The notes: generated from the sequence alone by a model not told the origin. A DNA stretch of 64,000 nt from an uncultured Fibrobacter sp. (GCF_947166265.1 NZ_CAMVDO010000012.1:1-64000), one strand, 5' to 3'. Counted from the first letter of the stretch, positions 5,625 to 61,498 are shown. Made by a program: numbers and translations.

Positions 5625-6906
5625 AATTGCCTTGAAATAACGAGAATATCCAATTGATCCAACCGCGAATAGTTGATGAACGTCTCTTGAAAGTGCTTTC
5701 ACTACCTATGTTAAATAGGTTGCTGTTTTTCATAATTGAAACAATTTCATTTTGGTCAATGATGGAGTTTTGCTCAAGACAGCTTGTAAAGGTATTATAA
5801 AAGACTTTATGTTGCAGTATTTTTCCACAATAAGCTAATTGTCTTTTTTTGTAGGGTAATGAAAGAATTTTTCGGCCTTCATCAGTGACAGCATAAGGTC
5901 CTCCTGCTTGAATTTTTTTTATGAGTCCCAAATATTGAGCGGCATTTGTATAGTAATCTGTTTGACGGGCATCAAATGCGTATTTTTGTGTTATTTGTTC
6001 TCTTGTGTAAGATTGCATATTTAGTATTTCGCACAAGTTGATAACTCTTTCAAATTTGTCTGCTTGGGGAAACGCGATTTCAGGTTCTTTGGTAATAGAT
6101 GTTGTTCCTAGAAGTTTGATGATGTCGTCTAGTGTGATGTCGGTATTTTCTATGGAGTATCTTTTTGATTTCACCAGTTTTAATGAATTGTAGACCATTT
6201 CGTCTTCAAATGTATATTCGTATAAAGAGAATACTCCGTTTGAATATGTTAAAAAAATAGGCTTGATTTTTTTTGTTAACCCCTTTTCCTGCCAAGTTCT
6301 ATATGGATAATAAAGTTGTCTAATTAAGAAGTCGTCTGCAAGATCTCTTTTCGCTTCAATAATTGACAGATAATTTATTCCTTCATAAGCAGAATCTATT
6401 TCGATTTGTGATTTTTCTACTTCTATCGTGTAAATCTGTTCCTTGGTTCCTTTAATGTCGAAGGAAAATTTGCCAGACCCCATACGTCCGCATGCAGTGG
6501 CGTATAGTTCTTCATCCTCAAAAAAGTCACTTAATATCCCAGATGCAAAAGCCGCATTTATTGCCATGGTTTCGCTAAGAATATTTTCTTCGGTTATTGA
6601 CTGAAGATAGTCTGGTAGAGAAAATTGCTGGATTGGGGCGTTGTTTTGTTCGAATTTATGATAAATGTTAAAATTTGAAATTATGTAATTTCCGCGAGAA
6701 ATGGGCAAAATGGCTAATTTATTATCGCGAAAAATTTGAGGTAAATTAATGGAATGATCAAATTTAGACATTAAACGTGGTTCGCGCTCTTTTTTAATGT
6801 CTTTTGCTGATATGATAAAGTGTCCTTGCCGATTAATCTCTTCAAGGATGTTGAAACGTTCGAATAGAACATTCCATGCTTTGTCTATTTTGGTTAAATC
6901 ACTCAT
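5602..6906 (-). CDS. Type II restriction endonuclease, PD-(D/E)XK candidate
   Basis: A 434-residue protein sandwiched between two DNA methyltransferases on the same strand, with overlaps at both ends (8 nt and 23 nt), which is the typical context of a restriction enzyme. A candidate nuclease core is visible: D171 followed by IIEAKR with E184 and K186, matching a D-x(n)-E-x-K metal site. The C-terminal third looks like a winged-helix domain (TREQITQKYAFDARQTDYY and a following wing), probably for target recognition. The recognition sequence cannot be predicted. Two partner methyltransferases suggest an asymmetric target, each enzyme protecting one strand. Confidence 0.75.
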   Translation of the reverse strand: MSDLTKIDKAWNVLFERFNILEEINRQGHFIISAKDIKKEREPRLMSKFDHSINLPQIFRDNKLAILPISRGNYIISNFNIYHKFEQNNAPIQQFSLPDYLQSITEENILSETMAINAAFASGILSDFFEDEELYATACGRMGSGKFSFDIKGTKEQIYTIEVEKSQIEIDSAYEGINYLSIIEAKRDLADDFLIRQLYYPYRTWQEKGLTKKIKPIFLTYSNGVFSLYEYTFEDEMVYNSLKLVKSKRYSIENTDITLDDIIKLLGTTSITKEPEIAFPQADKFERVINLCEILNMQSYTREQITQKYAFDARQTDYYTNAAQYLGLIKKIQAGGPYAVTDEGRKILSLPYKKRQLAYCGKILQHKVFYNTFTSCLEQNSIIDQNEIVSIMKNSNLFNIGSESTFKRRSSTIRGWINWIFSLFQGNYELQLNP

Positions 6907-7750
6907 AATTGGTTACGACGACTTCGTCAACTAGTCCTCGACGAGAGGCTATAGAATTAACAGATCTTTTTGCTTGAATTGTGTGAATGGTGTAATCTTT
7001 ATACAGGTCTTTAATGAAGTTTGTTGCTGAATTTGACAACATAAATTTTACATTTTTTTTGTCAAGCTTATCGCAAATTTCCTTTAGCGATTCCTGTTGT
7101 TCTCGCCCAAAACCTCCTTTTGTATATCCAGTAAAACTTGAGGAATCTGAAATGGGATCGTATGGAGGATCAAAATAGACGAAAGATTTATTTGTCACAT
7201 TTCTTAATGCGGAAGAAAAATCCCCATTAAGAAAAGTTATTTCATTATTGTTAAAATAATTGCTAACAGCTCTTAGAACTGGTGGGTTTACGATTCCGGG
7301 ATTTATGTAATGTCCAAAAGGAGTGTTGAATTCACCAGCATTATTAACCCGGAACAAACCGTTATAGCAAGTCTTGTTTAAGAAAATAAGACGAGCGGCT
7401 TTTTGTATGTTTGTTCGTTCGTTGTAGGCTTCTTTATCTCTGTCCCAATCTCTAACATCATAAAAATGCTTTTCATCGTTAGGGTGCGTTTCTAGTTCTT
7501 GAATCAAATCTTCTACATTGTCTTTTATAACTTGATACATGTTGATCAAGTCTGAGTTTACATCATTAACTACCGCGTTTTGTGGTTGCAAATGAAAAAG
7601 CATGGCTGCACCACCAAGAAACGGCTCGTAATATTTTGTATAGCCGTCTTTGGGAAGGTACTGACTCAGCTCATTGATGATCTGTCTTTTCCCACCAACC
7701 CATTTTACAACAGGTGCGACGAGTAAGTTTCTTTTTAAATTAGACAGCAT
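6899..7750 (-). CDS. Dam-family DNA adenine methyltransferase
   Basis: A 283-residue N6-adenine methyltransferase of the Dam/DpnM family. Visible are KWVGGKR at 16-22 (SAM-binding motif X region), EPFLGG at 42-47 (motif I) and the catalytic DPPY at 194-197. It modifies adenine in the target of the neighbouring restriction enzyme. ATG at 7750 is preferred: AGGGA lies 6 nt upstream and homologues begin near VAPVVKW; the frame extends to 7810 with an extra AT-rich leader of 20 residues. It is the first gene of the restriction-modification operon and overlaps the endonuclease gene by 8 nt. Confidence 0.85.
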   Translation of the reverse strand: MLSNLKRNLLVAPVVKWVGGKRQIINELSQYLPKDGYTKYYEPFLGGAAMLFHLQPQNAVVNDVNSDLINMYQVIKDNVEDLIQELETHPNDEKHFYDVRDWDRDKEAYNERTNIQKAARLIFLNKTCYNGLFRVNNAGEFNTPFGHYINPGIVNPPVLRAVSNYFNNNEITFLNGDFSSALRNVTNKSFVYFDPPYDPISDSSSFTGYTKGGFGREQQESLKEICDKLDKKNVKFMLSNSATNFIKDLYKDYTIHTIQAKRSVNSIASRRGLVDEVVVTNYE

Positions 7751-15281: not shown

Positions 15282-15351
15282 GTTATCGGAAAAATTGATA
15301 ACGAGCGCTAAAAACAATGTATTGGACAGCGACTAAAATCGCACCTATATT
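15282..15351 (+). promoter_or_regulatory. Sulfur-regulon promoter (standard 70-bp layout)
   Basis: Dyad GTTAT (15282-15286)-N11-ATAAC (15298-15302), then TTGGAC (15322-15327), an 18-bp spacer and TATATT (15346-15351). It drives the class III aminotransferase. Confidence 0.8.
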
Positions 15352-16885: not shown

Positions 16886-17962
16886 TTACTGGACAGTGGC
16901 GGTGAAGCGCGCGGCGATGGCGACTTCAGAAACTTCTTTTTCACTGTAAGCGCTCAGTTGGATTTTGCTGCGCTTGCCAATCTTCTTGATAAGGCTCACA
17001 GTCCATGCGACGGCATCGGCGTCGGCCTGCAATTCGTCGCGGTTGGAGAGGTATTCAAGTTCGGCGTAGAGGCTGTTCAAAATACCTGCGGTCGGAATTT
17101 CGATACCTACGAAGAACGGAACATATTCAGTGCCTTGAACGTATTCGGGCTTGATGGCGTTTTCGACGGAAAGATTTTCGTCGTCGCCGGTGTAAATGTA
17201 AGCAACTTCGCCATAGATTCCCAAATTCTTGAGAAAGTAATAGCTTGCACGACCTGCGACGCGGTGGGTGACTTCGGCGGTATGCTGAATGGGATCAAGA
17301 ACGTTGCCGCGGTAAGCGACGCTTACCTTGGCGTCCCCGAACTTGAGCGTTTCTTCGAAGCGGAGGTAGCCGGTGTCAAACTTGTTGTCGTAAGCGCCCA
17401 ACAAAGCGGTGAAACTGGAGATACCCTTGTCGAATCCGAAGGCGACGGCGTCATGCTGGTAATCGCGAGCAAGGAATCCGCGCTTTGAAAGGTGCGGGTC
17501 AACGTAGGTACCAAAGTTACCAGCTACGGACCAGTCGGTACGGAAACGTCCGAATTGTGCACTGAAGTTGCCGAACGCAAGGTTCCATGTATACTTAGCA
17601 TAGTAAGTATCGGCGCTAATTTTGTCCTGTGCGGTCTTTGTCACCTTAACCTTGCCATTTTCGTCAGTAGTGACATCAGTAACATTCTTGTTTCCAAAAA
17701 CAGGGCTAAAGATGCGCAAGTTGATTACAGCTTCAAAGTTGTCGGAGGTGTATTTGCCACCCACGTTTGCGCGCAAGAAGGAATTGTCAAGAGTGTTGTC
17801 GGCGTCGTTGTCGTAAACAGCCTTGATAGCCTGGGCCTGAACGTTTCCGGTGAGCTTGAAGGCGGGATCTTCGGCCTTTGCTTCTTCAGCAAAAGAGTTT
17901 GCGGCGAAAATAGAAGTTGCAAAAACCGCAGTAGCGGCAATCTTCTTAAAATTCTGATTCAT
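16886..17962 (-). CDS. Outer-membrane porin-like protein
   Basis: A 358-residue protein with a cleavable signal peptide (MNQNFKKIAATAVFATSIFA, cleavage after NSFA) and then alternating aromatic/polar beta strands typical of a 16-strand-type porin. It ends with a short strand rather than the classical terminal Phe. It has its own standard sulfur-regulon promoter and terminator, so it is a monocistronic member of the regulon. It lies between the taurine-type genes and the sulfate reduction operon. Likely role: passage of sulfate or sulfonates through the outer membrane when sulfur is scarce. The solute is inferred from regulation only. Confidence 0.75.
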   Translation of the reverse strand: MNQNFKKIAATAVFATSIFAANSFAEEAKAEDPAFKLTGNVQAQAIKAVYDNDADNTLDNSFLRANVGGKYTSDNFEAVINLRIFSPVFGNKNVTDVTTDENGKVKVTKTAQDKISADTYYAKYTWNLAFGNFSAQFGRFRTDWSVAGNFGTYVDPHLSKRGFLARDYQHDAVAFGFDKGISSFTALLGAYDNKFDTGYLRFEETLKFGDAKVSVAYRGNVLDPIQHTAEVTHRVAGRASYYFLKNLGIYGEVAYIYTGDDENLSVENAIKPEYVQGTEYVPFFVGIEIPTAGILNSLYAELEYLSNRDELQADADAVAWTVSLIKKIGKRSKIQLSAYSEKEVSEVAIAARFTATVQ

Positions 17963-18016: not shown

Positions 18017-18086
18017 AATATAGAAGGGACTATGCGAAATGTCCAATACTTTAATCATATGCGGAGTTATCGGTTTTTGCTATAAA
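18017..18086 (-). promoter_or_regulatory. Sulfur-regulon promoter (standard 70-bp layout)
   Basis: Minus strand: TTTAT-N11-ATAAC dyad (18086-18066), TTGGAC (18046-18041), 18-bp spacer, TATATT (18022-18017). It drives the porin gene. Confidence 0.8.
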
Positions 18087-29078: not shown

Positions 29079-29489
29079 TTATTCAATAACAAGGCCTTCG
29101 TTCGTGGCGTTGTCGCCTTCGATATGGAAGGAATTCAATACCGGATTTTCGCGGTCCATGAGCGAAAGAATTAAGTAGCTTGCCGATGAATCGTAAGCCA
29201 GGCGCTTGTCTTCTTGCGACGGGCGTGACGGCGATTCCGGATGAGAATGCCAGTTGCCCAGCGGTTTCAGCCCCTTGGCGCGAATATCCTTGATGGCGGC
29301 CAAGTGTTCCTTGGGGTCAAGCGAAAAATGCTCGTTGGAATGGTCGATGTTTGTAAGCAGATACACTTCGCGAATCACCTTTCCTTCGGCAGTCACTTCA
29401 CCCGCAACCAGACCGCAGGCTTCTTCCGGCAAGTTCTTTTCCGCATGCGCCAGGATTTTTTCGTAGTTGTCCTTTGAAATGGAAATCAT
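29079..29489 (-). CDS. JAMM metalloprotease, HcyD/Mec+-like
   Basis: A 136-residue zinc protease of the JAMM (MPN) family. The ligands are visible: Glu22/23, H81 and H83 in HSHPESPS, S91 and D94, matching HxHx7Sx2D. Such proteases trim the C-terminus of ThiS-like sulfur carriers or release cysteine from them. It is the last gene of an operon with TusA, a ThiS-type carrier ending Gly-Gly-Cys and an E1 enzyme, which is the arrangement of the HcyS-HcyF-HcyD route of Wolinella. It should remove the terminal Cys to expose Gly-Gly. Confidence 0.85.
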   Translation of the reverse strand: MISISKDNYEKILAHAEKNLPEEACGLVAGEVTAEGKVIREVYLLTNIDHSNEHFSLDPKEHLAAIKDIRAKGLKPLGNWHSHPESPSRPSQEDKRLAYDSSASYLILSLMDRENPVLNSFHIEGDNATNEGLVIE

Positions 29490-29498
29490 GCGTACCGC

Positions 29499-30308
29499 CT
29501 AGTGTTTGAGATCGCAAACAGCCTGTTCGTAGTCAATGAGCTTGGTGATGGTCGGGTGCGTGCCGCAAACGGCGCAGTCTTCGGTATGGCTCGGGAGTTT
29601 TACCTTGCGGAATTCCATGGTGAGCGCATTGTAGGTGAGCAAGTAACCTGTAAGCAAGTTGCCCACGCCCAAAATGTACTTGACGGCTTCCATTGCCTGA
29701 AGGCTACCAATCACGCCTCCCATCGCGCCAATGACGCCCGCCTGCTTACAAGTCGGCACCGCATCTTTCGGAGGGGGTTCCTTGAATACGCAGCGGTAGC
29801 AAGGTCCCTGGCCCGGAACGTATGTCATCAGCTGGCCCTGGAAGCGGATGATTCCCGCATGGGAGAATGGTTTCTTTGCCATGACGCAGGCGTCATTGAT
29901 GAGGAACTTCGCCGGGAAATTGTCGGTCCCGTCGATGATGAAATCGTAATCCTTGATGAGGTCGAGGATGTTGTCGCTCGTGACGAAGGTATGGTAAGTA
30001 ATCACCTTCACGTCAGGGTTCATCGCTTCCATGGTTTCCTTCGCGGATTGTACCTTGGGTTTACCCACATCCTGCGTGGCGTGTATTATCTGGCGCTGCA
30101 AATTCGAAAGGTCAACCACATCGGCATCTACAATGCCGATGGTGCCCACACCTGCGGCGGCAAGGTACATGGCGACAGGAGCGCCAAGGCCTCCCGCACC
30201 AATCACGAGAACCTTCGCGTTCAAGAGCTTTTTCTGGCCCTTGGCTCCCACCTCTTTTAGGATAATGTGGCGCGAGTAGCGTTCAAGCTGTTCGTTGGTA
30301 AAAGCCAT
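29499..30308 (-). CDS. ThiF/MoeB-family E1 adenylating enzyme, HcyF-like
   Basis: A 269-residue E1-like enzyme that adenylates the C-terminal glycine of a sulfur-carrier protein. The nucleotide site VIGAGGLGAPVA is at about 35-46, DADVVDLSNLQRQ follows, and the zinc site is formed by CYRC (about 173) and CAVC (about 246). A candidate catalytic Cys is in VPTCKQAG. The start overlaps the carrier gene stop by 1 nt, so the carrier and its activating enzyme are coupled. No rhodanese domain is fused here, in contrast to the paralogue at 34797. Confidence 0.88.
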   Translation of the reverse strand: MAFTNEQLERYSRHIILKEVGAKGQKKLLNAKVLVIGAGGLGAPVAMYLAAAGVGTIGIVDADVVDLSNLQRQIIHATQDVGKPKVQSAKETMEAMNPDVKVITYHTFVTSDNILDLIKDYDFIIDGTDNFPAKFLINDACVMAKKPFSHAGIIRFQGQLMTYVPGQGPCYRCVFKEPPPKDAVPTCKQAGVIGAMGGVIGSLQAMEAVKYILGVGNLLTGYLLTYNALTMEFRKVKLPSHTEDCAVCGTHPTITKLIDYEQAVCDLKH

Positions 30309-30514
30309 TAGCAGCCGCCTCCCATAAAGTAGAGGAATTCTACGTTATCGCCGTCCTTGAGCACCGCTTTATTGAATGCTCCATTTTCGATAAATTCCTC
30401 GTTTACAGAAACAGTAACATAGAGCGGATTGTCTACCTTTTCGGCTTCAATCAATTCTGCGACAGTAAGGCCTTCTTTATATTCTTTCTTGTTTCCAGCA
30501 ACGGTAATAAACAT
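30308..30514 (-). CDS. ThiS-family sulfur carrier ending Gly-Gly-Gly-Cys (HcyS-like)
   Basis: A 68-residue ubiquitin-fold carrier. It ends FMGGGC followed by a stop, so the reactive Gly-Gly is capped by one Cys. Normal ThiS ends Gly-Gly; in Wolinella the homocysteine carrier HcyS has one extra residue that the JAMM protease HcyD removes before activation. The same gene set (carrier, E1, JAMM) follows here. After trimming, adenylation and sulfur transfer, its thiocarboxylate would feed O-acetylhomoserine sulfhydrylase. No thiG or thiazole genes are near, which argues against thiamine synthesis. Confidence 0.85.
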   Translation of the reverse strand: MFITVAGNKKEYKEGLTVAELIEAEKVDNPLYVTVSVNEEFIENGAFNKAVLKDGDNVEFLYFMGGGC

Positions 30515-30527
30515 TTTAACTCCTTGG

Positions 30528-30773
30528 TTATTCGCCGACTTTCTTTACGATGAGCGTGTAGGTTCCATCTTGGTTGTCGTCGAGTTTGAGAATTTCGTGA
30601 CCTTCTTCCTTGATGCTGCGCGGCACATTTTGCACCGGCTCGCCATCATTCAAGCGGACAGAAAGAATCTGGCCTTCGTCAAGTTCTTCCAGGGCGACCT
30701 TCGCCTTCACGAAAGTGGTCGGGCACACGACATCGGTAATGTCGATGGTATCGTCAATTTTAAAATCTGCCAT
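30528..30773 (-). CDS. TusA-family sulfur-transfer protein
   Basis: An 81-residue TusA-like protein. The active Cys is in DVVCPTTFVKAK near residue 17, a CP-x-P-type motif in which the second Pro is changed to Thr-Phe (CPTTF). TusA proteins relay persulfide sulfur from desulfurases or rhodaneses. It is the first gene of the carrier operon with its own standard promoter, so it is a candidate sulfur donor to the downstream ThiS-like protein. Confidence 0.85.
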   Translation of the reverse strand: MADFKIDDTIDITDVVCPTTFVKAKVALEELDEGQILSVRLNDGEPVQNVPRSIKEEGHEILKLDDNQDGTYTLIVKKVGE

Positions 30774-30812: not shown

Positions 30813-30882
30813 AATATAGAACGGCTTTTTGCCCCTGTCCAATACTATCTTTTTATGCAGAATTATCAGTTTTTCCTATAGT
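30813..30882 (-). promoter_or_regulatory. Sulfur-regulon promoter (standard 70-bp layout)
   Basis: Minus strand: ACTAT-N11-ATAAT dyad (30882-30862), TTGGAC (30842-30837), 18-bp spacer, TATATT (30818-30813). It drives the tusA-carrier-E1-JAMM operon. Confidence 0.8.
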
Positions 30883-30924: not shown

Positions 30925-31884
30925 TTAAATAATATAGTACCACACGTCGCTTTGCTTGAGTTCTTCAGTTTTGTGCGTTTTGTCGGTAGACACATAATCC
31001 ATTTCAAGATTTTTCATGCTTACGCGGGTGTTTGCACCTACGGAGCTTGTGATAAATGCATTGCCGCCAATGACTGCATTTTCGCCCACGATAGTGTCTC
31101 CGCCGAGAATGGATGCCCCTGCGTAAATAGTGACATTGTCTTGAATGGTGGGGTGGCGTTTTTTACCGGAAAGCTTTTGGCCACCTCTTGTCGAAAGTGC
31201 GCCCAAGGTTACGCCCTGATAAATTTTCACGTTTTTGCCGATAACGGCGGTTTCGCCAATCACAATGCCCGTGCCGTGATCGATAAAGAAATACTTGCCA
31301 ATGGTTGCACCAGGGTGAATGTCGATGCCCGTTTTGGAATGAGCATATTCGGTCATAAGACGAGGAAGCACAGGCACATGTAAAAGATAAAGTTCATGAG
31401 CAATACGGTAAATCGTTGTCGCCATAAGGCCAGGGTAAGCAAGAATGATTTCGTCAAGGCAGCCGGCAGCAGGGTCACCGTCGTAAGCGGCGTGCAAATC
31501 GGTTTCCAGAAATTCGCGGACCTGCGGAATATTCGCGAAGAATTCCTTGCAAATACGGTAGCTTTCAATCTTGCGTTCTTCCGATGTCATTGTGCCACGC
31601 AGTTTGCAATAATCCAAAGCGATCGCTACCTGCTTGTGAAGGTGGTAGAATGTATCTTCGATAATGACCGCGAAACTGTTTTTTGGATTGTATATCTTAT
31701 GTGTGCGGTCCCTGAAATGCCCGGGATAAACCACCCTGATCAAGTTCTGTAAAATTGACTGGATCTCGGCCTGGTCGGGTCGATTATAAATATCGATATT
31801 GTCAATATGCTTATTGCCGTTGTAATCGTCGAAAATAGTTTGTACGGCTTTTGCTACTTCAGATTCTTGGATAAGTTCGTGCAT
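30925..31884 (-). CDS. cysE: Serine O-acetyltransferase
   Basis: A 319-residue serine acetyltransferase that makes O-acetylserine for cysteine synthesis. The left-handed beta-helix repeats run from about GIDIHPGATIGKYFFIDHGT (catalytic His/Asp region) to the end, with GVTLGALSTRGGQ in the active site. The N-terminal helical domain is long, about 180 residues, as in EpsC-type enzymes. It lies downstream of the encapsulin and cysteine desulfurase genes, a known partner in Family 2A encapsulin loci. It ends in WYYII rather than the regulatory Ile tail of the enteric enzyme, though the final Ile is kept. Confidence 0.92.
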   Translation of the reverse strand: MHELIQESEVAKAVQTIFDDYNGNKHIDNIDIYNRPDQAEIQSILQNLIRVVYPGHFRDRTHKIYNPKNSFAVIIEDTFYHLHKQVAIALDYCKLRGTMTSEERKIESYRICKEFFANIPQVREFLETDLHAAYDGDPAAGCLDEIILAYPGLMATTIYRIAHELYLLHVPVLPRLMTEYAHSKTGIDIHPGATIGKYFFIDHGTGIVIGETAVIGKNVKIYQGVTLGALSTRGGQKLSGKKRHPTIQDNVTIYAGASILGGDTIVGENAVIGGNAFITSSVGANTRVSMKNLEMDYVSTDKTHKTEELKQSDVWYYII

Positions 31885-31912
31885 AAGTGTGTGTGATGTA
31901 AGGGATAATTTT

Positions 31913-32006
31913 AGACGAAAGACGAGAGACGAAAGACGAGAGAAAAGATTTGTTTAAACATCTCTAGTCTCTCGTCTGTAGGTGCGAAGCGCCGTTCTTT
32001 CGTCTA
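31913..32006. repeat. Tandem 14-mer with long inverted partner
   Basis: AGACGAAAGACGAG occurs twice in tandem (31913-31940), and AGTCTCTCGTCT (31966-31977) and CTTTCGTCT (31998-32006) can pair with it. It fills the gap between the desulfurase stop and cysE and may act as a terminator or mRNA-processing hairpin. Confidence 0.55.
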
Positions 32007-32008
32007 AC

Positions 32009-33754
32009 CTACGCGAACGTCTTCAGCGCCCTCACGAGTGCGTCGATGTCGTCCGGAGAGTTGTACAGCGCAAGCGTCGGGCGAACGGTTGTTTCGTAAC
32101 CGAAATGCCTGAGCACCGGCTGTGCGCAGTGGTGACCTGTACGCACGGCAACACCGTAGGCGTCGAGCCTCTTGCCCACTTCTTCGTCGGAATAACCGTC
32201 GAGTTTGAAGGCGAGAGCAGAAGCCTTGTTGAGTGCCGTACCTACAAGGTGCAGACCCTTGACGGTCTTCAGTTCCTTGAGGCCATACTGCAACAGTTCA
32301 TGTTCCCAGCGGAATACGCAGGGCATCCCGATTTCGGAGAGGTACTGGAGAGCGGCACCCAAGCCAACAGCGTCGGCGATGCTTCCGGTTCCTGCCTCGA
32401 ACTTGTTCGGGATTCCGTTGTAGATGGTGCGTTCGAAGGTCACGTCGGCAATCATGTTGCCGCCGCCGTGGTACGGGCGAGCCGCTTCGAGCAATTCCTT
32501 CTTGCCGTAAACGACACCGATACCGGTCGGGGCAAACACCTTGTGTCCGGAGAACACGAAGAAGTCTGCGTCGAGGGCGGAAACATTCACCGGAATGTGC
32601 GCGATAGACTGTGCGCCGTCAATGAGGATTCTCACGCCGTGCCTGTGGGCAATGGCGATGAGTTCTTCAATCGGGGTCACGGTTCCGAGCACGTTCGAAA
32701 CATGCGTCACAGAAACGAACTTGGTGCGCTTCGTGAATAGCGCCTCGTAATCGTGCAGCTTGAGCTGGCCGGTGGAATCGCAGGGGATCACCTTGATGAT
32801 TGCGCCTGTTTCTTCGGCAATGAGCTGCCATGGCACGATGTTGGCGTGATGTTCCAGGATAGAGACGATGATTTCATCGCCCGGCTGGAGGGTCGGCTTC
32901 ACGTAAGCATTCGCAACTAGGTTGATTGCCTCGGTGGTACCGCGCACGAATACGATTTCCTGCGAAGACGGAGCCCCGATAAAGTCGCGCACGATGTTAC
33001 GGGCGTTTTCGTAGGCATCCGTCGATACGGCCGCGAGCGTATGGGCACCACGGTGCACGTTGGAGTTCTCGTTTTCGTAGTAGTACTTGAGGCGATCAAT
33101 CACCACTTGCGGGCGTTGCGTCGTAGCACCGTTATCGAGCCAGACAAGCGGATGGCCGTTGACTTGCTTCGAAAGAATCGGGAAGTCGGCGCGAATCTGT
33201 GCAAGCGTCTTGGAACCGATGCGGATCGATTCGTTGCGGGAATTGGAGCCGCTATTTGCGTTGCCGGCCTTGTTCACGGAATCGCCGCCGAGAGATGTCG
33301 GAGCGTCTATCGGACGAGCGTTCTGTGCAGCCTGCGTCTTGGACACGACCTTCGGGGAGTAACCCTGTGCCGGTGCGGGAGCCGCCGGAACATCGCCGAA
33401 CTGCGACACAAATTCCGCTTCGGGAACCGCAGGGGCTTCCACGGAATTGAGCCAGGTATCGGTGGAATTGCCGCCGTAGGCAAACGGTGCCGAAGAGGTC
33501 GGCTGGTCGCCATAGGTCGCAAACGGATGTTCCCAGTCGAATGCAGGAGTCTGGCTAATGGCTGCTGCCCCTTGGGCGGCACTCACTCCCTGAGCTGCAG
33601 AAGCGTTCTGCACTTCGGGTGCCGCGGGAGTTGCAGCATAAGCACTGTCCGTCAGGTCGGGAAAGTACTCATTTGCCAATTGCTCCAGTTCAGCCGCATT
33701 GGGAACTCCGGCGAGTTCTTCCAGCGATCTGGTATCTGGATTATTCGTAGTCAT
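32009..33754 (-). CDS. Cysteine desulfurase with disordered N-terminal encapsulin-targeting region
   Basis: A 581-residue SufS-type PLP cysteine desulfurase. The catalytic domain begins near residue 180; the PLP lysine is K405 in FSGHKVFAP and the persulfide Cys is C543 in TGHHCAQP. The first about 180 residues are rich in Ala, Pro, Gln and Ser and look disordered, with short islands such as SLEELAGVP and FDWEHPFATYGD. This long tail is the known cargo-loading region of Family 2A encapsulin desulfurases. ATG 33754 overlaps the shell gene by 14 nt. It converts cysteine to alanine and supplies sulfane sulfur inside the shell. Confidence 0.9.
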   Translation of the reverse strand: MTTNNPDTRSLEELAGVPNAAELEQLANEYFPDLTDSAYAATPAAPEVQNASAAQGVSAAQGAAAISQTPAFDWEHPFATYGDQPTSSAPFAYGGNSTDTWLNSVEAPAVPEAEFVSQFGDVPAAPAPAQGYSPKVVSKTQAAQNARPIDAPTSLGGDSVNKAGNANSGSNSRNESIRIGSKTLAQIRADFPILSKQVNGHPLVWLDNGATTQRPQVVIDRLKYYYENENSNVHRGAHTLAAVSTDAYENARNIVRDFIGAPSSQEIVFVRGTTEAINLVANAYVKPTLQPGDEIIVSILEHHANIVPWQLIAEETGAIIKVIPCDSTGQLKLHDYEALFTKRTKFVSVTHVSNVLGTVTPIEELIAIAHRHGVRILIDGAQSIAHIPVNVSALDADFFVFSGHKVFAPTGIGVVYGKKELLEAARPYHGGGNMIADVTFERTIYNGIPNKFEAGTGSIADAVGLGAALQYLSEIGMPCVFRWEHELLQYGLKELKTVKGLHLVGTALNKASALAFKLDGYSDEEVGKRLDAYGVAVRTGHHCAQPVLRHFGYETTVRPTLALYNSPDDIDALVRALKTFA

Positions 33755-34706
33755 AGTATTCGCCAACCTCTACATCTTCAAGGACTGCAATAGCGTCGTC
33801 GGCAAGAATAGCCGCAGAGCAGTACAGGGAAAGCAGGTAAGAAGCGACGCCCTTGTTGTCGATGCCGCGGAAACGCACGGAGAGACCGCGAGAATGTTCA
33901 TTCTTAAGACCTGCCTGGAAAAGTCCAATCACGCCGCGCTTGGCTTCGCCAGTACGCACGAGCAGGATGTTGGTCTTGCCGCCCTGGGACTTCGGATTCT
34001 TGAGGCCGTCTACAAGGAGCTTGTCGGTCGGGACCAGAGGAATACCGCGCCAGGTGAGGAACTTGCCGCCGGCAATGTCAATGACAACGGGCGGCACACC
34101 GCGGCGGGTACATTCGCGTTCGAATGCGGCAATGGCACGCGGGTGGGCGAGGAAGAAAGACGGTTCCTTCCAAACCTTCGAAATGAGTTCGTCGAGATCG
34201 TCCGGAGTCGGGCGGCCGTCATCGCGACGCGGCTGAATGCGCTGGGAATCGGCGATGTTCTTCAACAGACCGTAATCGTCGTTGTTAATGAGCTGGCTTT
34301 CCTGACGTTCGCGGAGCGATTCGATAGCGAGACCGAGCTGTTCCTGAACCTGGTCATATGGAGAGCTGTAAACATCTTCAATCGCCGTGTTCACGTTGAT
34401 AATCGTGGAGATGGAGCTCAACTTGTATTCGCGCGGTTCGGTTTCGTATTCAACGTAGCCTTCCGGAATAATGTCGGTTTTCTTGGTCTGGCTGCAAAGA
34501 ACATCGAGCGGGGTTTCGCCTTCTACGACCTTGTTCACGCGGAACAGGCCAGTTTCCAGGCCCTTGAATTCAAGGAACTTGGTCAGCCACTTCGGAGTGA
34601 GGGCACCGTATTGTGGCTTGGTCTTAGTGACGTTAGCAAGGTTATAGGCGGCCTTTGCACCAAGTGCATTGATGCCGACTTTTTTATCAGTAGTTTCATT
34701 TGCCAT
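33741..34706 (-). CDS. Family 2A encapsulin shell protein
   Basis: A 321-residue HK97-fold shell protein of the SrpI/Family 2A type. Diagnostic stretches are NLANVTKTKPQ near the start, PTPDDLDEL and FFLAHPRAIAAFERE in the middle, FLTWRGIPLVP, and the C-terminal VLEDVEVGEYYDYE. It assembles into a closed protein cage with the desulfurase encoded next as cargo; in the studied Family 2A system the cage stores sulfur. ATG 34706 follows GAGAGG by 8 nt. It lies 90 nt after the MoaD-E1-rhodanese gene and is followed by cysE, so sulfur handling genes flank it on both sides. Confidence 0.93.
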   Translation of the reverse strand: MANETTDKKVGINALGAKAAYNLANVTKTKPQYGALTPKWLTKFLEFKGLETGLFRVNKVVEGETPLDVLCSQTKKTDIIPEGYVEYETEPREYKLSSISTIINVNTAIEDVYSSPYDQVQEQLGLAIESLRERQESQLINNDDYGLLKNIADSQRIQPRRDDGRPTPDDLDELISKVWKEPSFFLAHPRAIAAFERECTRRGVPPVVIDIAGGKFLTWRGIPLVPTDKLLVDGLKNPKSQGGKTNILLVRTGEAKRGVIGLFQAGLKNEHSRGLSVRFRGIDNKGVASYLLSLYCSAAILADDAIAVLEDVEVGEYYDYE

Positions 34707-34796
34707 TTTGAGTACCTCTCTTGTTGTATGTGGCAAGTTGTTCTTGTTGTGATTTTACCTATAGATTTTATAGGAAAACAAATAAAAAAAAACTTA

Positions 34797-36275
34797 TTAC
34801 AGCCATGCTCCTTCATGCGAGAACATGATGTCTTTAATGGCGTCGATACCGCCTTTCAAATTGTAAAGAGGACCGGTGTAACCTGCTTCGCGCAAAGTGT
34901 TGATGGCAAGAACGCTGCGCTTGCCTTGCTTGCAGATGACGATGGTGTCCTTATTCGGATCTAGTTCCTTTTGCCTGCGGGCAAGCTGACCGATGGGAAT
35001 CACAATGGCATTCGGGAAACGCAGAACCGCCCGCTCGTGGGGCTCGCGAACATCGATAATTGTCATCGGGTCGCTGTTTTCAATCTTCCTTGCGAGTTCT
35101 TCGGGCGTAAAGCCCTCCACCGGGATTTCATTTTCGGTCTTGAGCCCGCAAAGTTCATCGTAATCGATTTCTTCGATATCGGTAATGGTGTGTCTGTTTC
35201 CGCAAATGGGACAGTCTCTGCTGCGATCTACCTTTAGAATTCTTGATGTCAAATAAAGGCTGTCAATATGCAACAGTTTCCCATTCAAATGTTCGCCGAT
35301 GCCTAGAATCAATTTAAGCGCTTCGTTTGCCTGGATGCTTCCCACAATGCCCGGAAGCGGGCTAATGGCGCCGCCTTCGGAACAGGAGGGAATGAGCCCT
35401 GCCGGCGGGGGCGACGGGTATTGGCATCGGTAGCACGGGCCACCGTCCAGATTGAAAATACCCACCTGACCTTCGAACTGATAAATCGCTCCGAACACGA
35501 CAGGAATACCGTGCAGCGCACAGGCGTCATTAATCAAGTAGCGGGTCTTGTAGTTGTCGGAGCAGTCGACCACCAAATCGTAACCATCAATCTGTTCAAG
35601 AATGTTCGACGCATTAAGTTGCTCTTTTTCGGCAATAAATTCAATGTTCTTGTTGATGTTTTTTACCTTGTCTCTGGCAGAGGCAACTTTTGGACGCTTG
35701 AGATCGCGAGAACCATAAAGTACCTGACTTTGCAAGTTTTCCAGCGATACATCGTTAAAATCGACGACTTTAATGGTTCCGACTCCTGCCGCGGCAAGGT
35801 ACTGGATTACCGCAGAACCGAGCGCGCCTGCACCCGCGACAAGGACTTTGGATGCCTTGATGCGCTTTTGCCCTTTCACGCCAATTTCTTTAAGCATCAA
35901 GTGCTTGCCGAATCGTTCCACTTCGCTGTCGTCGAAAGATACGCTTTTGCGGCGTTCATCCGAAATAAGGCTTTCGACAGCATGGTTTTTGGACTCTTCT
36001 ATTGGTGCGCCACCGGCGATGGCTGGTAATAGCAGAATCTCGGTGTCGGCGGGTAGTTCTGCATCCCAAAGGGTGTCGATTACCAGCTTTTTGCCGTTGA
36101 TATAAACTTGTATGAAATCCCTGAGTTTTTTGTTTTCGTCGTAAAACACATTTTGTGCTTCGGGATGCATATCCAAGAGAATGGCGAAAGCCTTTCTGAT
36201 ACAGCTTGCAGGAATTTCAACTTGGGGTGTTCCCCCAAGAAACTTTCTAAGTGTTGCAGATATGTATATTTTCAC
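34797..36275 (-). CDS. MoaD-like / E1 (MoeB) / rhodanese fusion protein
   Basis: A 492-residue three-domain protein. Residues 1-89 are a MoaD/ThiS ubiquitin-fold domain that ends with Gly88-Gly89 inside the chain (PAIAGGAPI). Residues about 110-370 are an E1 adenylating domain with VAGAGALGS at 146-154, zinc Cys C281, C284, C355, C358 and candidate catalytic C298. Residues about 385-492 are a rhodanese with active C448 (ICKQGKRS). Because the Gly-Gly is not at a C-terminus, a cut after it is needed; a JAMM protease gene lies just upstream. It has its own standard promoter and a G11 run in its 5' leader. Confidence 0.9.
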   Translation of the reverse strand: MKIYISATLRKFLGGTPQVEIPASCIRKAFAILLDMHPEAQNVFYDENKKLRDFIQVYINGKKLVIDTLWDAELPADTEILLLPAIAGGAPIEESKNHAVESLISDERRKSVSFDDSEVERFGKHLMLKEIGVKGQKRIKASKVLVAGAGALGSAVIQYLAAAGVGTIKVVDFNDVSLENLQSQVLYGSRDLKRPKVASARDKVKNINKNIEFIAEKEQLNASNILEQIDGYDLVVDCSDNYKTRYLINDACALHGIPVVFGAIYQFEGQVGIFNLDGGPCYRCQYPSPPPAGLIPSCSEGGAISPLPGIVGSIQANEALKLILGIGEHLNGKLLHIDSLYLTSRILKVDRSRDCPICGNRHTITDIEEIDYDELCGLKTENEIPVEGFTPEELARKIENSDPMTIIDVREPHERAVLRFPNAIVIPIGQLARRQKELDPNKDTIVICKQGKRSVLAINTLREAGYTGPLYNLKGGIDAIKDIMFSHEGAWL

Positions 36276-36317
36276 TTTACTCTCCGTACGTTAAAAGTGC
36301 GTATTGCGCAAAAAAAT

Positions 36318-36328
36318 CCCCCCCCCCC
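36318..36328 (-). repeat. C11/G11 homopolymer tract in 5' untranslated region
   Basis: Eleven consecutive C on the + strand (G in the transcript), between the promoter -10 at 36352 and the start codon at 36275. Such tracts often vary in length by slippage. Confidence 0.8.
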
Positions 36329-36351
36329 GAGGGAGCCTTTGGGCAGGACGA

Positions 36352-36421
36352 AATATAGAACTGCATAATTTGTATGTCCAATACAATAATTTTATGCAGA
36401 ATTATTAAAATTATCTATAGC
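36352..36421 (-). promoter_or_regulatory. Sulfur-regulon promoter (standard 70-bp layout)
   Basis: Minus strand: GCTAT-N11-ATAAT dyad (36421-36401), TTGGAC (36381-36376), 18-bp spacer, TATATT (36357-36352). It drives the MoaD-E1-rhodanese gene and probably encapsulin downstream. Confidence 0.8.
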
Positions 36422-36427
36422 GTAAGG

Positions 36428-36808
36428 CTAATTCTGAAAATATTGGATATCTGCTACACCATCTTTGGTTACCGAAAGAATGACGTAAACGAGGCCAGGA
36501 ATCATATGGCGTCGATCCTGTTCCGAAAGGATTGCTTTGCAATCGGGGTGCGAATGGTAAAAACCGACAATTTCCAAATCGCTGCCTTCGATTTCGCGTT
36601 CCACTTGATAAAGGAACAAGGGGTCGATTTCGAAATGTCGCTGGATTTGTTCCCCTGTCGCCTGATTGGTCGCTTCGCGAATGTCGCTAACAGTAATGGC
36701 CCCGTCTATTTTGCCAATCAGAATTCCACAACACTCTTGTGGGTAGGCTTTCTGGGCGGCTAAAATGATCTGCTTCGTTGTTTTTTCGCAAAGATTGATG
36801 TTTGTCAT
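36428..36808 (-). CDS. JAMM metalloprotease paired with MoaD-E1-rhodanese fusion
   Basis: A 126-residue JAMM/MPN zinc protease. Glu25, H85 and H87 (HSHPDC), S95 and D98 complete the metal-binding pattern HxHx7Sx2D. A Cys pair follows Glu25 (ECCG). It is encoded directly upstream of the fusion protein, which carries an internal Gly-Gly, and is a good candidate for cutting it to release the carrier domain. It is distinct from the JAMM at 29079, so each carrier system seems to have its own protease. Confidence 0.88.
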   Translation of the reverse strand: MTNINLCEKTTKQIILAAQKAYPQECCGILIGKIDGAITVSDIREATNQATGEQIQRHFEIDPLFLYQVEREIEGSDLEIVGFYHSHPDCKAILSEQDRRHMIPGLVYVILSVTKDGVADIQYFQN

Positions 36809-36910: not shown

Positions 36911-36980
36911 GTTATAAAAAAAAGTGATAACAAACGCTAAAAATTAAGTATTGGACGCTATCAAAAACCGCTTCTATATT
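36911..36980 (+). promoter_or_regulatory. Sulfur-regulon promoter (standard 70-bp layout)
   Basis: GTTAT-N11-ATAAC perfect dyad (36911-36931), TTGGAC (36951-36956), 18-bp spacer, TATATT (36975-36980). It drives metY and the genes behind it; being a symmetric dyad between divergent genes it could also act on the JAMM gene. Confidence 0.82.
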
Positions 36981-50505: not shown

Positions 50506-51513
50506 TTAAATAAAATACGTCAAGTCGGACTTTTCGGTGGAGCCGAGCATGGTCGCAACGCCGCCAAGTTCCACGCCGTCAATCAGCTCTTCGGCAGTGA
50601 TGCCCATGAGTTCCATCGACATCTGGCAGGCGACAAACTTCACGCCCTTCTGCCTTGCGCTTTCAATAAGTTCTTCTAGCGAAGAAACGCCGTTCTGCTT
50701 CATGACCGCGCGAATCATCTTGGCGCCGATTCCGCCAAAGTTCATGCGCGAAAGCCCGAGCTTCTTGGAACCGCGGGGCATCATGAATCCAAACATTTTT
50801 CCGATGAGCGATTTCTTGACGCGCACCTTTTCGGGCCTGCGCAAAATGCTTACACCCCAGAAGGTAAAGAACATCGTGACCGGGCGGCCCATCGCGGCAG
50901 CACCATTCGCCATAATGAAAGAGGCTATCGCCTTATCCAAATCGCCGCTGAATACGACAAAAGTCTTGCCGTGCTCAAAATCTTTTTTTTCGAGAGACTG
51001 GGGCGCATTCCGTTTCACGATGGTCGCATAGATTACGCCGTCTTTTTCGATGAGCGATTTCAACTCGTTGCCGGTACGCTGGCACCAGACTTCCACATCC
51101 GAGAAAAATGCTTTCTCGGTCGCTTCCACCTGGACTTCTTCGCCAACGGCCACGCTTTTGACCGCTTCGTCCACCTTCACGATGGGGCCCGGGCACTTGA
51201 GGCCCTTGGCATCCACGAAATGCACTTTCGGGACAGCTTCAAGCCCGCCTTCTACATTGTACACGTCGTAATCGCGATCGGCGAGAATTTCGGCAACCTC
51301 TTCGGAACGATCTCCCGTAGAACAGAACACGTAAACAGGCTTGTCTTTCGGAATACTGTCTATCTTCTTGGACAACTCAAAAAATGGAATTAGAATAGCC
51401 CCACTTACGGGACGTACAATGGACTCGCTCGGTTCGCGAACATCCAACAAGGTTGAGTTTTTGGAATCAATCTTGTGAAAATCTTTTGCAAGAATTTTTT
51501 TGACTTCGGACAT
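50506..51513 (-). CDS. Rhodanese-TusA-DsrE fusion sulfurtransferase
   Basis: A 335-residue protein with three sulfur-carrying domains in order: rhodanese (about 1-95, active Cys in VFCSTGDRS), TusA (about 98-170, GLKCPGPI) and a DsrE-type domain (about 185-335, with CQMSMELMGI near the end). These normally separate proteins pass persulfide sulfur to each other; the fusion would allow channelling. ATG 51513 is preferred; the frame also begins at an earlier TTG. It is co-transcribed with bioB, which consumes sulfur. Sulfur source could be the nearby desulfurase or imported sulfur. Confidence 0.9.
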   Translation of the reverse strand: MSEVKKILAKDFHKIDSKNSTLLDVREPSESIVRPVSGAILIPFFELSKKIDSIPKDKPVYVFCSTGDRSEEVAEILADRDYDVYNVEGGLEAVPKVHFVDAKGLKCPGPIVKVDEAVKSVAVGEEVQVEATEKAFFSDVEVWCQRTGNELKSLIEKDGVIYATIVKRNAPQSLEKKDFEHGKTFVVFSGDLDKAIASFIMANGAAAMGRPVTMFFTFWGVSILRRPEKVRVKKSLIGKMFGFMMPRGSKKLGLSRMNFGGIGAKMIRAVMKQNGVSSLEELIESARQKGVKFVACQMSMELMGITAEELIDGVELGGVATMLGSTEKSDLTYFI

Positions 51514-51643
51514 TTTATCGTATAGAAAAAAATTTAATGACGGCAACTCACAGATTTAACGATATGATACACAAAAATAAAAATTGCACCTAAACGGTGC
51601 AATATTTCGGGATATACATTTTTTTTATAGCTTTTCAATCAAA

Positions 51644-57611: not shown

Positions 57612-58964
57612 TTATTTACCACCAACAGATGTGCTGTAAATCTTTTCGAGCAAATTAAGCGCACCCTTGTAACCAACGAAGCTGCGATTGATAATCAACG
57701 TTTCGCTAGAGGGCGGAGTAATTTCGAAAAGCAATGCATTCTTTTCGTTGGCGATATTGATTTCCCACGAAGAGGCGAGAATCAAAGGCTTTCCAGAAGA
57801 GAAATTCACTTCCTTAATAGACTTTTCAATCAGGTAGCCATCTTCTTCAAATTCCACGTCGACATCGACACCTTCGCTAATGTTGTGGAAGGCATTTTCG
57901 ATTTGTTCGCGGAACTTCTGCGGAGGATCGTCACTGATGATTGCCTTGCGCGGAATAAGGCCGATTTGATCCACGAGGAACTTGGTGTAGGCAAGCGTGT
58001 AGGCGGAATCTGCGGTAATGGCAAATTCGCTGGGCATACCGAACCAGTATTCGGCGAAAAATTCGGAGAAGTGTTCCAGATAGTAATAGTAAATCTGATT
58101 TTCTTCCTTGATGAACTTTTCGCTCTGCTTTTTGTCAATTCCGGCAAATTCGACGACTTTACGGATAAATTCGCTAGTCGCTTCGGCACCGAGCGGAATT
58201 TCAGAAATGTGCAGGAACGGCTGGCCATATTTTTCCTGGAGGTGTTCTGCGTTTCGAACACCCACCCACGGAGAAATAACCAAGTTGAACTGAGCCTTCG
58301 GAATGCGCAGCCAGTCCGCGACGCCGTTATTTTCGGGTCCGAAGGGAACATTGACTTCAAAACCGGCACCACGGAGAATACGGGCAATTTCCTGATAGTC
58401 TCCACGCCAGTTCTGGTTGTAGTAAGGAGTTTCAAACCAAAGATTGACAAGCCCTTTTTTGCGTTTACCCTTGTAATCACCCACGAACTGGTCGATAATG
58501 GCATTCACGACTTCTTCGTGACCGAAAAGGTTGTTGCCCTTAAACCCAGCGGTATCAACGGAGACGATCGGGTAACCCAAATCGCGGTAGCCACGAACCA
58601 GGCTCGAAACATCGTCGCCGATAAGACCTCCCACGCAACCGGTAAGCACAACGTAGAGGTCGCCATTGAACACCTTGAGCGTCGACTTGATCAACTGATC
58701 CAAAGTCTTGATGCCGCCAAAGACGATGTCGTTTTCAGTGGAGTTTGCACTCGGCATGTTACCAGCGCCGGCATAAATACTGCCCTGAAAGCCATTTTCG
58801 AAGGTGAGAAAAGCCGTTTGCTTAAGCTGGCAACCTGGAGAACAGTTGGCAATGGGAACTGCACCCTTAATCGCTACAACCGTATGAGATGCACCAACCG
58901 CACAAGCGTATCGGGGGTCCGAAATGGAATTACTCTTTTTTCTTTTAATTGTAGAATCAGACAT
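57612..58964 (-). CDS. Nitrogenase-like reductase beta (NifK/MarK-like) subunit
   Basis: A 450-residue NifK-type subunit. The P-cluster Cys pattern is kept: C21 (YACAV), C45 (NCSPGC, with an extra C41) and C110 (LTGCVGGLIGDD). It has no long N-terminal extension, so it is shorter than NifK of nitrogen fixers (about 510). It pairs with the D-type subunit encoded 15 nt upstream. Without nifE, nifN or nifV in the cluster, and with sulfur-type control, it fits the methylthio-alkane reductase group rather than nitrogenase or BchB/CfbD. Confidence 0.85.
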   Translation of the reverse strand: MSDSTIKRKKSNSISDPRYACAVGASHTVVAIKGAVPIANCSPGCQLKQTAFLTFENGFQGSIYAGAGNMPSANSTENDIVFGGIKTLDQLIKSTLKVFNGDLYVVLTGCVGGLIGDDVSSLVRGYRDLGYPIVSVDTAGFKGNNLFGHEEVVNAIIDQFVGDYKGKRKKGLVNLWFETPYYNQNWRGDYQEIARILRGAGFEVNVPFGPENNGVADWLRIPKAQFNLVISPWVGVRNAEHLQEKYGQPFLHISEIPLGAEATSEFIRKVVEFAGIDKKQSEKFIKEENQIYYYYLEHFSEFFAEYWFGMPSEFAITADSAYTLAYTKFLVDQIGLIPRKAIISDDPPQKFREQIENAFHNISEGVDVDVEFEEDGYLIEKSIKEVNFSSGKPLILASSWEINIANEKNALLFEITPPSSETLIINRSFVGYKGALNLLEKIYSTSVGGK

Positions 58965-58979
58965 TTTGAAACTCCCTAG

Positions 58980-60608
58980 TTATACATTTTCCGAATTATT
59001 TTCTTCGCCGTTATCGTTGTCTTTCTTTTTGCTTTTGCTGAACTTGAGATTTCTCGGTTCCGGCAAATCTTCAAGAGCTTCCGGATGGTGGGTCAAGTAG
59101 AACGGATCGTCCTGAGAAAGCCACCAATCGGAATAGGGGAGTTTCACATTGCGTTTAAGCACCTGGTTGAACTTGGTGCGCGAAATAACGCCCTTGAGCA
59201 TTTCGCCGATACGGAGAATGCCCTGATAGCCCACCGGAATATGCTCGTCGCCCATGGTAAGGGTCGGAAATCCAAGGTGCCCCGCAACAGAAGCAAGACC
59301 CGGGTGGCGAATAAGCAAAAAGTCGGTCTTGGCGCGCTTCAGAAGCTGCGGAAGCTGGAAGGCGCGAGTCTTACTGACGGTATAGTGCGGAATGTCGCCA
59401 TAGGTTTCAACCAGTTCCTTGAGGGTGTCCTGATGTTCGCCACCGCCGTCGTAAACGGGGTCGTGATGGAACACGAGTGCAGCGTCGTGGCCGATTCCCA
59501 GTTCCGAAAGCACGCTGATAAGGCCGTGTGCGTATGCAGATCCCGTCATCACGATACCATTCTTGCCCTTGAAAAATTCACGAAGTTCGGCAAGTTTCGG
59601 GGCGATGCGCTTGTGCTCGCTTTCAATGTATTCTTCGGCTTCTTTTTCTTTGCCGACAACTTTTGCGATAGCGCGAAGCCAAGCATCAGTTCCCTTGATG
59701 CCGTAAGGTTGCGGAGCGTCAATCTGCGGAACGCCGAAAGATTCTTCAAGAGCCGTGGCCATGTAGCCGCCCAACGTATCGCAGAAGGTTGCGGTAGCGA
59801 CTGCTTCGGAGGCTTGGCGAATTTCTTCGAAAGAGGCGGTATCCAAAAGGTAGTTCACGCGCAGCCCAAGCGGAGCAAGCATTTCGGAGAAATAGTCCGA
59901 ACCCCAGAGGGCAACGATATTGAGCAAATCATTCTGCTTCTTGGTCGGATGGCGTTCCACAATCTGGCGAAGAACGCCATGGAAAGCGACGTCAAAACCC
60001 GTAGACCAGTGCTTAGAACGGAAACCTTCGCAGTGTAGCGGAATGATAGGCACGCCAACCTCAGGCTCCATTTCTTCGGCAATGGAATCGATGTCTTCGC
60101 CGATAATAGCGGTAGCACACGCCATGCCAATAAAGATTGCCTTGGGGTTAAAGCGTTCCTTTGCGTCGAGAATCGTTTGGCGGAGCTTATCGGAAGCACC
60201 GAAAACCATGTCCTTTTCTTTCAGGTTCGTACTGATGTTCAGCGTATTCTGCAGGGGCTTTCCGCGACGGCGAAGGCCGTTATGCATAGAGAGGTTAAAC
60301 TTGGAGTTTTCGCCGCTGCAACCGATAGGAGAATGGTCAATCAGGGCACAGTCCGTCAGGTTACCCACCTGGCACTGCACAATCGCATTAGAGCACATGG
60401 TCTCTTGGTTCAGCGGAGAACTCAATTCACAAAGTTTGCAGCCCGGGCCATTGCCCGCGCAGCCGCCATGCTTTTTCGCACTGCGTTCGTCGTAGGCCGA
60501 TTCCTTAATCAAATCGCTCGCCTTGCCGTCCCAGCCGATAATCGTACCCAGTCGATACTCGCGGTTTTCGACTGAGGTCATGTTCAAATTAATATTAGTC
60601 TTGGCCAT
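58980..60608 (-). CDS. Nitrogenase-like reductase alpha (NifD/MarD-like) subunit
   Basis: A 542-residue NifD-type subunit. P-cluster Cys are C72, C97 (PIGCSG) and C164 (GMACATAIIG). The cofactor-binding Cys is kept as C276 (TFCDTLGGYM), matching Cys275 of NifD. Where NifD has His442 in GPYHG, this protein has GYQG (Gln462), so the second cofactor ligand differs. The N-terminus has an extra Cys set (C50, C57, C60). A charged tail rich in Lys, Asp and Asn ends the chain. The presence of a FeMo-type cofactor Cys rules out the tetrapyrrole enzymes BchN and CfbD. It probably reduces a C-S bond. Confidence 0.85.
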   Translation of the reverse strand: MAKTNINLNMTSVENREYRLGTIIGWDGKASDLIKESAYDERSAKKHGGCAGNGPGCKLCELSSPLNQETMCSNAIVQCQVGNLTDCALIDHSPIGCSGENSKFNLSMHNGLRRRGKPLQNTLNISTNLKEKDMVFGASDKLRQTILDAKERFNPKAIFIGMACATAIIGEDIDSIAEEMEPEVGVPIIPLHCEGFRSKHWSTGFDVAFHGVLRQIVERHPTKKQNDLLNIVALWGSDYFSEMLAPLGLRVNYLLDTASFEEIRQASEAVATATFCDTLGGYMATALEESFGVPQIDAPQPYGIKGTDAWLRAIAKVVGKEKEAEEYIESEHKRIAPKLAELREFFKGKNGIVMTGSAYAHGLISVLSELGIGHDAALVFHHDPVYDGGGEHQDTLKELVETYGDIPHYTVSKTRAFQLPQLLKRAKTDFLLIRHPGLASVAGHLGFPTLTMGDEHIPVGYQGILRIGEMLKGVISRTKFNQVLKRNVKLPYSDWWLSQDDPFYLTHHPEALEDLPEPRNLKFSKSKKKDNDNGEENNSENV

Positions 60609-60619
60609 GAGCCCTCACA

Positions 60620-61498
<879 letters not shown>

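Follow-up and report, generated by a model that had tools for sequence, protein, structure and literature searches.

A Family 2A encapsulin shell has a pore 3.7 Å wide that was modelled as passing cysteine, and SrpI of Synechococcus is induced by sulfur starvation (PMC8049743); in a 2021 survey of encapsulins, serine acetyltransferase and rhodanese were the most enriched Family 2A accessories (PMC8346489). How sulfur stored in such compartments returns to metabolism is unsettled in the literature consulted. Mycobacterium tuberculosis has a cysteine pathway made up of MoeZ, CysO, CysM and Mec+, in which the sulfur source for CysO has been described as unknown (PMC3227635), and a protein-thiocarboxylate pathway to methionine in Wolinella is credited to Krishnamoorthy and Begley (2011), as cited in PMC5764234. 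For capped carriers a protease is typically required, the JAMM enzyme QbsD being one example (PMC6006322); the MoaX fusion of M. tuberculosis requires cleavage after its Gly-Gly (PMC4326299), and DRJAMM of Deinococcus cleaves a MoaD-MoaE fusion (PMC8832034). Here, we analyzed a 64,000-nucleotide stretch from an uncultured Fibrobacter sp. (NZ_CAMVDO010000012.1:1-64000, hereafter the window), part of a 3.77-Mb assembly (G000, contig C12), with 168 species genomes of the phylum as the comparison set. It encodes a Family 2A shell and its desulfurase cargo directly after a fusion of carrier, E1 and rhodanese domains. We judge it about an even chance that a Family 2A sulfur compartment is here coupled to a cysteine-synthesis module built on a ubiquitin-like sulfur carrier of the CysO type. 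A search of the literature, with subscription journals mostly outside its reach, returned no work linking encapsulins to protein thiocarboxylates or sulfur carriers.

Locus organization

On the minus strand, the genes follow one another 5' to 3' as JAMM protease, carrier-E1-rhodanese fusion, Family 2A shell, cargo desulfurase and cysE. The parts did not come together by chance, because orthologues were found across the genus. Features of the locus are as follows.

36428-36808, minus strand: JAMM/MPN+ metalloprotease (Mec+/QbsD/HcyD-like), 126 amino acids; PF14464, E = 1e-19
36352-36405, minus strand: sulfur-regulon promoter, ATAATTCTGCATAAAA-n5-GTATTGGACA ... TATATT; motif search and genus conservation
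34797-36275, minus strand: fusion of CysO-type carrier, E1 and rhodanese, 492 amino acids; ThiF and rhodanese domain matches
36009-36275, minus strand: CysO/SAMP1-like beta-grasp carrier domain, residues 1-89 of the fusion, ending in PAIAGG; profile matches
35136-35924, minus strand: MoeB/MoeZ-type E1 adenylation domain; ThiF, E = 7e-73
34833-35114, minus strand: rhodanese domain with active-site loop CKQGKRS; PF00581, E = 8e-15
33741-34706, minus strand: Family 2A encapsulin shell (SrpI-like), 321 amino acids; PF19307, E = 2e-93, and NF041162
32009-33754, minus strand: Family 2A cargo cysteine desulfurase (CyD), 581 amino acids, with SufS-type catalytic domain; TIGR01979 and NF041166
33659-33688, minus strand: loading motif LEQLANEYFP, within the disordered N-terminal region of the cargo; motif pattern and published motif
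31885-32008, minus strand: long, stable hairpin in the spacer between the cargo gene and cysE; -42.3 kcal/mol, z = -6.4
30925-31884, minus strand: serine O-acetyltransferase CysE; TIGR01172 and NF041874

Carrier, E1 and protease

The N-terminal domain of the fusion lies below Pfam detection, ThiS barely matching it (E = 0.3), but the NCBIfam model SAMP1 detected it (E = 6e-9). Built from 11 homologues, profile A3 matched CysO of M. tuberculosis (3dwg_C, E = 5.7e-16), in an alignment that reached the terminal Gly-Gly, and the CysO-type protein 4n6e_B (E = 1.5e-17). These profile comparisons place the carrier with the CysO proteins known from Mycobacterium cysteine synthesis, not with generic MoaD. 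The sequence-only reading, an earlier annotation made without database searches, had described a MoaD-E1-rhodanese fusion upstream of the shell with cysE downstream; the gene order, the E1 and the rhodanese all held, and the type of carrier did not. A generic MoaD or molybdopterin role was rejected, the closest profile matches being CysO-type proteins and then SAMP1-like ones.

The last six carrier residues, PAIAGG, were unchanged in all 40 distinct fusions, at identities down to ~43%, while few positions were invariant elsewhere in the carrier domain and the linker that follows differed in length and sequence. Within the genus, the PAIAGG codons gave a non-synonymous polymorphism (pN) of 0 and a synonymous polymorphism (pS) of 0.58. 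Such invariance is the pattern expected of a functional Gly-Gly terminus and is odd for an internal loop. In CysO the Gly-Gly is a free C-terminus; here it is internal and becomes free only after processing. Because the fusion leaves no free C-terminus, a thiocarboxylate on the fused carrier requires cleavage after Gly-Gly, and by analogy the JAMM protein is presumably the protease that cuts there. Its catalytic residues (E25, H85-S-H87-P, S95 and D98) were invariant in eight homologues. The sequence-only reading had proposed a protein thiocarboxylate but left out this cut, presumably made by the JAMM protein encoded at 36808-36428, within its own interval. Single-sequence AlphaFold2 prediction of the fusion reached a pLDDT of 32 and was not used.

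The remainder of the fusion combines ThiF with a C-terminal rhodanese that has its active cysteine, the domain make-up of MoeZ; the fusion protein scored 342 bits against the MoeZ equivalog model NF005902, short of the cut-off of 647. Equivalents of D130, K86 and the zinc cysteines of the E1 are retained in the fusions, rhodanese C448 is invariant among them, and both domains are under purifying selection (pN/pS of 0.12 for E1 and 0.09 for rhodanese). A parallel pN/pS value for HcyF was set aside because paralogues had been mixed in it.

Shell, cargo and cysE

The shell protein scored 312 bits against PF19307 and 478 bits against NF041162 (encap_f2a), above the latter's cut-off of 380. PF19307 was the sole domain detected; the cyclic nucleotide-binding (cNMP) domain that marks Family 2B was not found in the protein. 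The profile assigns the shell to Family 2A, and its assembly into an icosahedron with the cargo inside is predicted. The cargo gene starts at ATG 33754, not at TTG 33766, and shares 14 bp with the shell gene. Its SufS-type domain begins at about residue 186 and passed TIGR01979 with 535 bits; against the NCBIfam cargo model NF041166 the protein reached 763 bits, below the cut-off of 800, with a match that begins at residue 165 and covers the catalytic part. These profile matches bear out the Family 2A shell and desulfurase cargo of the sequence-only reading. The disordered 180-residue tail that it gave the cargo is also present and holds the loading motif, as an N-terminal region of 185 residues.

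The motif, LEQLANEYFP at residues 23-32, matches the published Family 2A cargo motif LARLANEFFS (PMC8049743). Of the cargo N-termini compared, 36 of 37 from the phylum and 57 of 65 from Proteobacteria contain the corresponding pattern, against about none of the shuffled sequences; this control excludes only a composition effect, the pattern having been loosened after the sequences were inspected. Inspection of the cargo N-terminal domain by eye did not reveal the second cargo motif, AASPYYFLDG.

CysE matched TIGR01172 (E = 1.5e-49) with 168 bits, below the cut-off of 211, and the EpsC model NF041874 with 153 bits, above the cut-off of 150. Since a very stable hairpin, possibly a terminator or processing site, separates the cargo gene from cysE, cysE need not share the cargo transcript.

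Distribution and gene order

Across the phylum, 45 genomes carry both fusion and shell, 7 the shell only, 4 the fusion only and 112 neither, and several of the exceptions fall at contig ends. Within the genus, the two co-occur with a Fisher p of 1e-16, uncorrected for phylogeny. The genus order is JAMM-fusion-shell-cargo-cysE. Other arrangements were found in relatives: shell-cargo-cysE-cysM-JAMM-fusion in G052, shell-cargo-cysE-cysM-JAMM with the fusion elsewhere in G012 and G013, and cysM-JAMM-fusion on a different contig from the shell genes in three further genomes. A dedicated CysM (at least 76% identity) is confined to genera g4 and g21; genus g2 has a relative at 53%.

Plasmid pACIB of Aliarcobacter cibarius, the single plasmid on which the Campylobacterota evidence rests, has the order cysM-JAMM-carrier-E1/rhodanese-shell-cargo-cysE. 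Its carrier is a separate protein ending in PSIAGG-I, that is, with a one-residue cap after Gly-Gly; an unfused carrier arrangement exists in another phylum. Judged by gene content, Aliarcobacter and the relatives with CysM have an encapsulin plus a CysO/MoeZ/Mec/CysM set. Insertion sequences also occur in the pACIB locus (6187-7404 and 8941-10323 of L169); they adjoin the JAMM gene and interrupt the gene for the E1-rhodanese.

In 80 Family 2A loci, all from Proteobacteria by record title and many from metagenome-assembled genomes, no E1, JAMM or carrier was detected (0/80; up to 10 kb on each side, less at contig ends; E ≤ 1e-5). The same loci had a cargo match in 76 cases, cysE in 71 and a CysM/CysK-like gene in 9.

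Sulfur promoter

A 31-bp motif, ATAAnTCnGCATAAAA-n5-GTATTGGACA, matched six times in the 3.77-Mb genome at up to three mismatches, and five of these matches lie in the window, mostly before sulfur genes: a sulfate-binding protein operon, the TusA/HcyS set described below, the fusion, a porin-like gene and a MetY gene. A looser core matched seven times in the window, against 0.26 expected. The motif overlaps a -35/-10 pair (TGGACA-17-TATATT, 10/12), and in almost all of the genus members examined it stands ahead of the fusion; in L079 the sole match is weaker and lies 519 bp upstream. The sulfur promoter that the sequence-only reading had invoked is thus a recurrent element of this genome, conserved before the fusion, and we infer that sulfur limitation induces it. 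The single operon of that reading stands as a conserved, co-regulated set, in which neither JAMM (from the promoter position) nor cysE (from the hairpin) need share the transcript.

Ahead of a further MetY gene and of an aminotransferase-like gene, at 36935-36956 (plus strand) and 15306-15327 (plus strand), the promoter core recurs in weaker form. The porin-like gene (16886-17962, minus strand; a guess from its sequence, with no Pfam match) lies near sulfate-activation genes and has its promoter at 18070. In this genome the leader of the fusion (36350-36276, minus strand) contains runs of 11 G and 7 T; a hairpin with a T-rich tail was found in 11 of 20 genus leaders, against 1.2 expected in shuffles, with stem sequences that differ. 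Attenuation is possible. An Rfam scan of the window matched no known RNA.

Second carrier system and other window genes

Beyond cysE on the minus strand lies a second carrier set, on which the sequence-only reading was silent, followed by sulfate uptake and reduction genes.

29079-30773, minus strand: second carrier system (TusA, HcyS-like ThiS protein, E1 and JAMM); domain matches

It consists of TusA (30773-30528), an HcyS-like ThiS protein ending in GGGC (30514-30311), an E1 with canonical NLQRQ (30308-29499) and a JAMM protein (29489-29079), with a separate sulfur promoter at 30866. Several members of the genus have the set directly upstream of the JAMM-fusion-shell genes. With several MetY genes nearby, the set resembles the Wolinella thiocarboxylate methionine pathway, which reportedly comprises HcyS, HcyF, HcyD and MetY. 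Farther along the window are a rhodanese-TusA-DsrE fusion protein of 346 amino acids (50506-51546, minus strand) and nitrogenase-like genes (57612-61465, minus strand) with Oxidored_nitro and NifH family matches.

Proposed route and alternatives

We read the fusion as a CysO-type cysteine-synthesis module that is linked to the Family 2A compartment and probably processed by JAMM. By analogy with the MoeZ-CysO-CysM-Mec+ pathway (PMC3227635), MoaX and DRJAMM, JAMM would cut after PAIAGG, so that the released carrier ends in a free Gly-Gly. The rhodanese cysteine would be charged by sulfane sulfur from the cargo, or by sulfur that exits the shell in small form, as persulfide, polysulfide or sulfide, the E1 would adenylate the carrier, and the thiocarboxylate would form. 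A pyridoxal phosphate (PLP)-dependent sulfhydrylase, CysM in the relatives and CysK or another enzyme here, would then transfer the sulfur to O-acetylserine made by CysE, and JAMM would split the carrier adduct to free cysteine. Such a route, switched on when sulfur is limiting, would bring stored sulfur back to cysteine.

The locus suggests this route without proving it. That a sulfur-storing encapsulin and a CysO-type carrier, released by JAMM from the fusion, together close a cysteine-sulfur-cysteine storage cycle, with the carrier taking up sulfur that leaves the shell and delivering it as a thiocarboxylate for cysteine synthesis, is a tentative proposal, less likely than not. A protein-thiocarboxylate route, as in the sequence-only reading, remains the best interpretation of the fusion given the CysO-like carrier, PAIAGG, JAMM and the CysM of relatives, but direct unloading from the shell is unlikely through a 3.7 Å pore.

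Several observations weigh against a coupling of compartment and carrier. Because the shell pore is so narrow, the fusion is unlikely to touch the cargo directly, and sulfur would have to exit the shell as a small molecule. The carrier module is not essential to the compartment, since it was absent from all 80 proteobacterial loci. The sulfur promoter sits between JAMM and the fusion, so JAMM, outside the fusion transcript as mapped, must have its own start or depend on read-through. No dedicated CysM was found in the genus (g1), this genome having CysK-like and CBS-like enzymes elsewhere. Furthermore, the ATP site of the fusion E1 is altered: the equivalent of MoeB R73 (we take R14 and R73 to be the MoeB numbers of the ATP-site arginines) is serine here (codon 35729-35727), giving NLQSQ in place of NLQRQ. 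Across the genus, the R73 position is S or N and the R14 position K, with one exception, and other genera are canonical; the neighbouring HcyF-like E1, unlike that of the fusion, keeps the usual residues. Given the change at R73 and the absent dedicated CysM, activity of the module in the genus is not assured. Finally, the co-location of sulfur genes may reflect mere co-regulation.

The alternative that survives best takes this last point further: the two systems would be co-regulated but mechanically separate, with the CysO-type module making cysteine from sulfide or thiosulfate under sulfur limitation and receiving nothing from the encapsulin. Five sulfur promoters serving different functions in one window fit this well, as do the relatives with cysM-JAMM-fusion and shell genes on different contigs and the proteobacterial shells that manage without the module. 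However, fusion and shell are tightly adjacent and jointly present or absent within the genus, and their linkage recurs with the genes rearranged and again in another phylum, which makes full separation rather unlikely.

Sulfur could also flow the other way, the module supplying cysteine to the encapsulated desulfurase and so loading the store. The steps of CysE, CysM and JAMM converge on cysteine, the substrate of the cargo, which the shell pore was modelled as passing (PMC8049743). Against this, the promoter is common to sulfate uptake, so expression would be expected when sulfur is scarce, and SrpI responds to starvation in the same sense (PMC8049743); we regard reverse flow as distinctly improbable. 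A changed role for the module in the genus, or loss of its thiocarboxylate activity, leaving for instance a rhodanese sulfurtransferase with a structural E1, would account for the genus-wide R73 and R14 substitutions and the absent dedicated CysM but sits so poorly with invariant PAIAGG, an E1 pN/pS of 0.12 and the retained D130, K86 and zinc-cysteine equivalents that we consider it very improbable.

If compartment and carrier are coupled, the locus offers one genetic answer to how Family 2A-stored sulfur returns to metabolism and to where CysO obtains its sulfur, because it physically links a desulfurase compartment to a CysO/MoeZ/Mec module. The fusion, a naturally occurring union of carrier, E1 and rhodanese whose internal PAIAGG never varies, also opens JAMM processing to direct study with purified proteins.

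Comparison with known systems

The locus shares with the Family 2A systems of Synechococcus (SrpI/CyD) and Acinetobacter a shell, a cargo with a disordered loading domain, cysE, a rhodanese function and sulfur regulation (PMC8049743, PMC8346489). On Synechococcus pANL the order is cysK-cysE-srpI-cyd-rhodanese. Whereas the rhodanese stands alone there, it is part of a CysO-E1-rhodanese fusion here, accompanied by JAMM and, in relatives, by CysM.

From the Wolinella Hcy pathway the locus recalls a carrier with residues after Gly-Gly, an E1 and a JAMM protein. A separate set of that kind lies next door (30773-29079), and differs from the fusion module as a distinct paralogue with canonical E1 residues. 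MoaX and the Deinococcus MoaD-MoaE protein likewise have an internal Gly-Gly that needs proteolysis, by JAMM in Deinococcus, but the fused partner is MoaE in those proteins and E1-rhodanese in ours.

The CysO-MoeZ-CysM-Mec+ pathway of M. tuberculosis is matched by the CysO-type carrier, the E1-rhodanese, JAMM and the CysM of relatives. Unlike in that pathway, the carrier is fused to the E1, the genus lacks a dedicated CysM, cysE suggests O-acetylserine in place of O-phosphoserine, and the module is linked to an encapsulin and its desulfurase.

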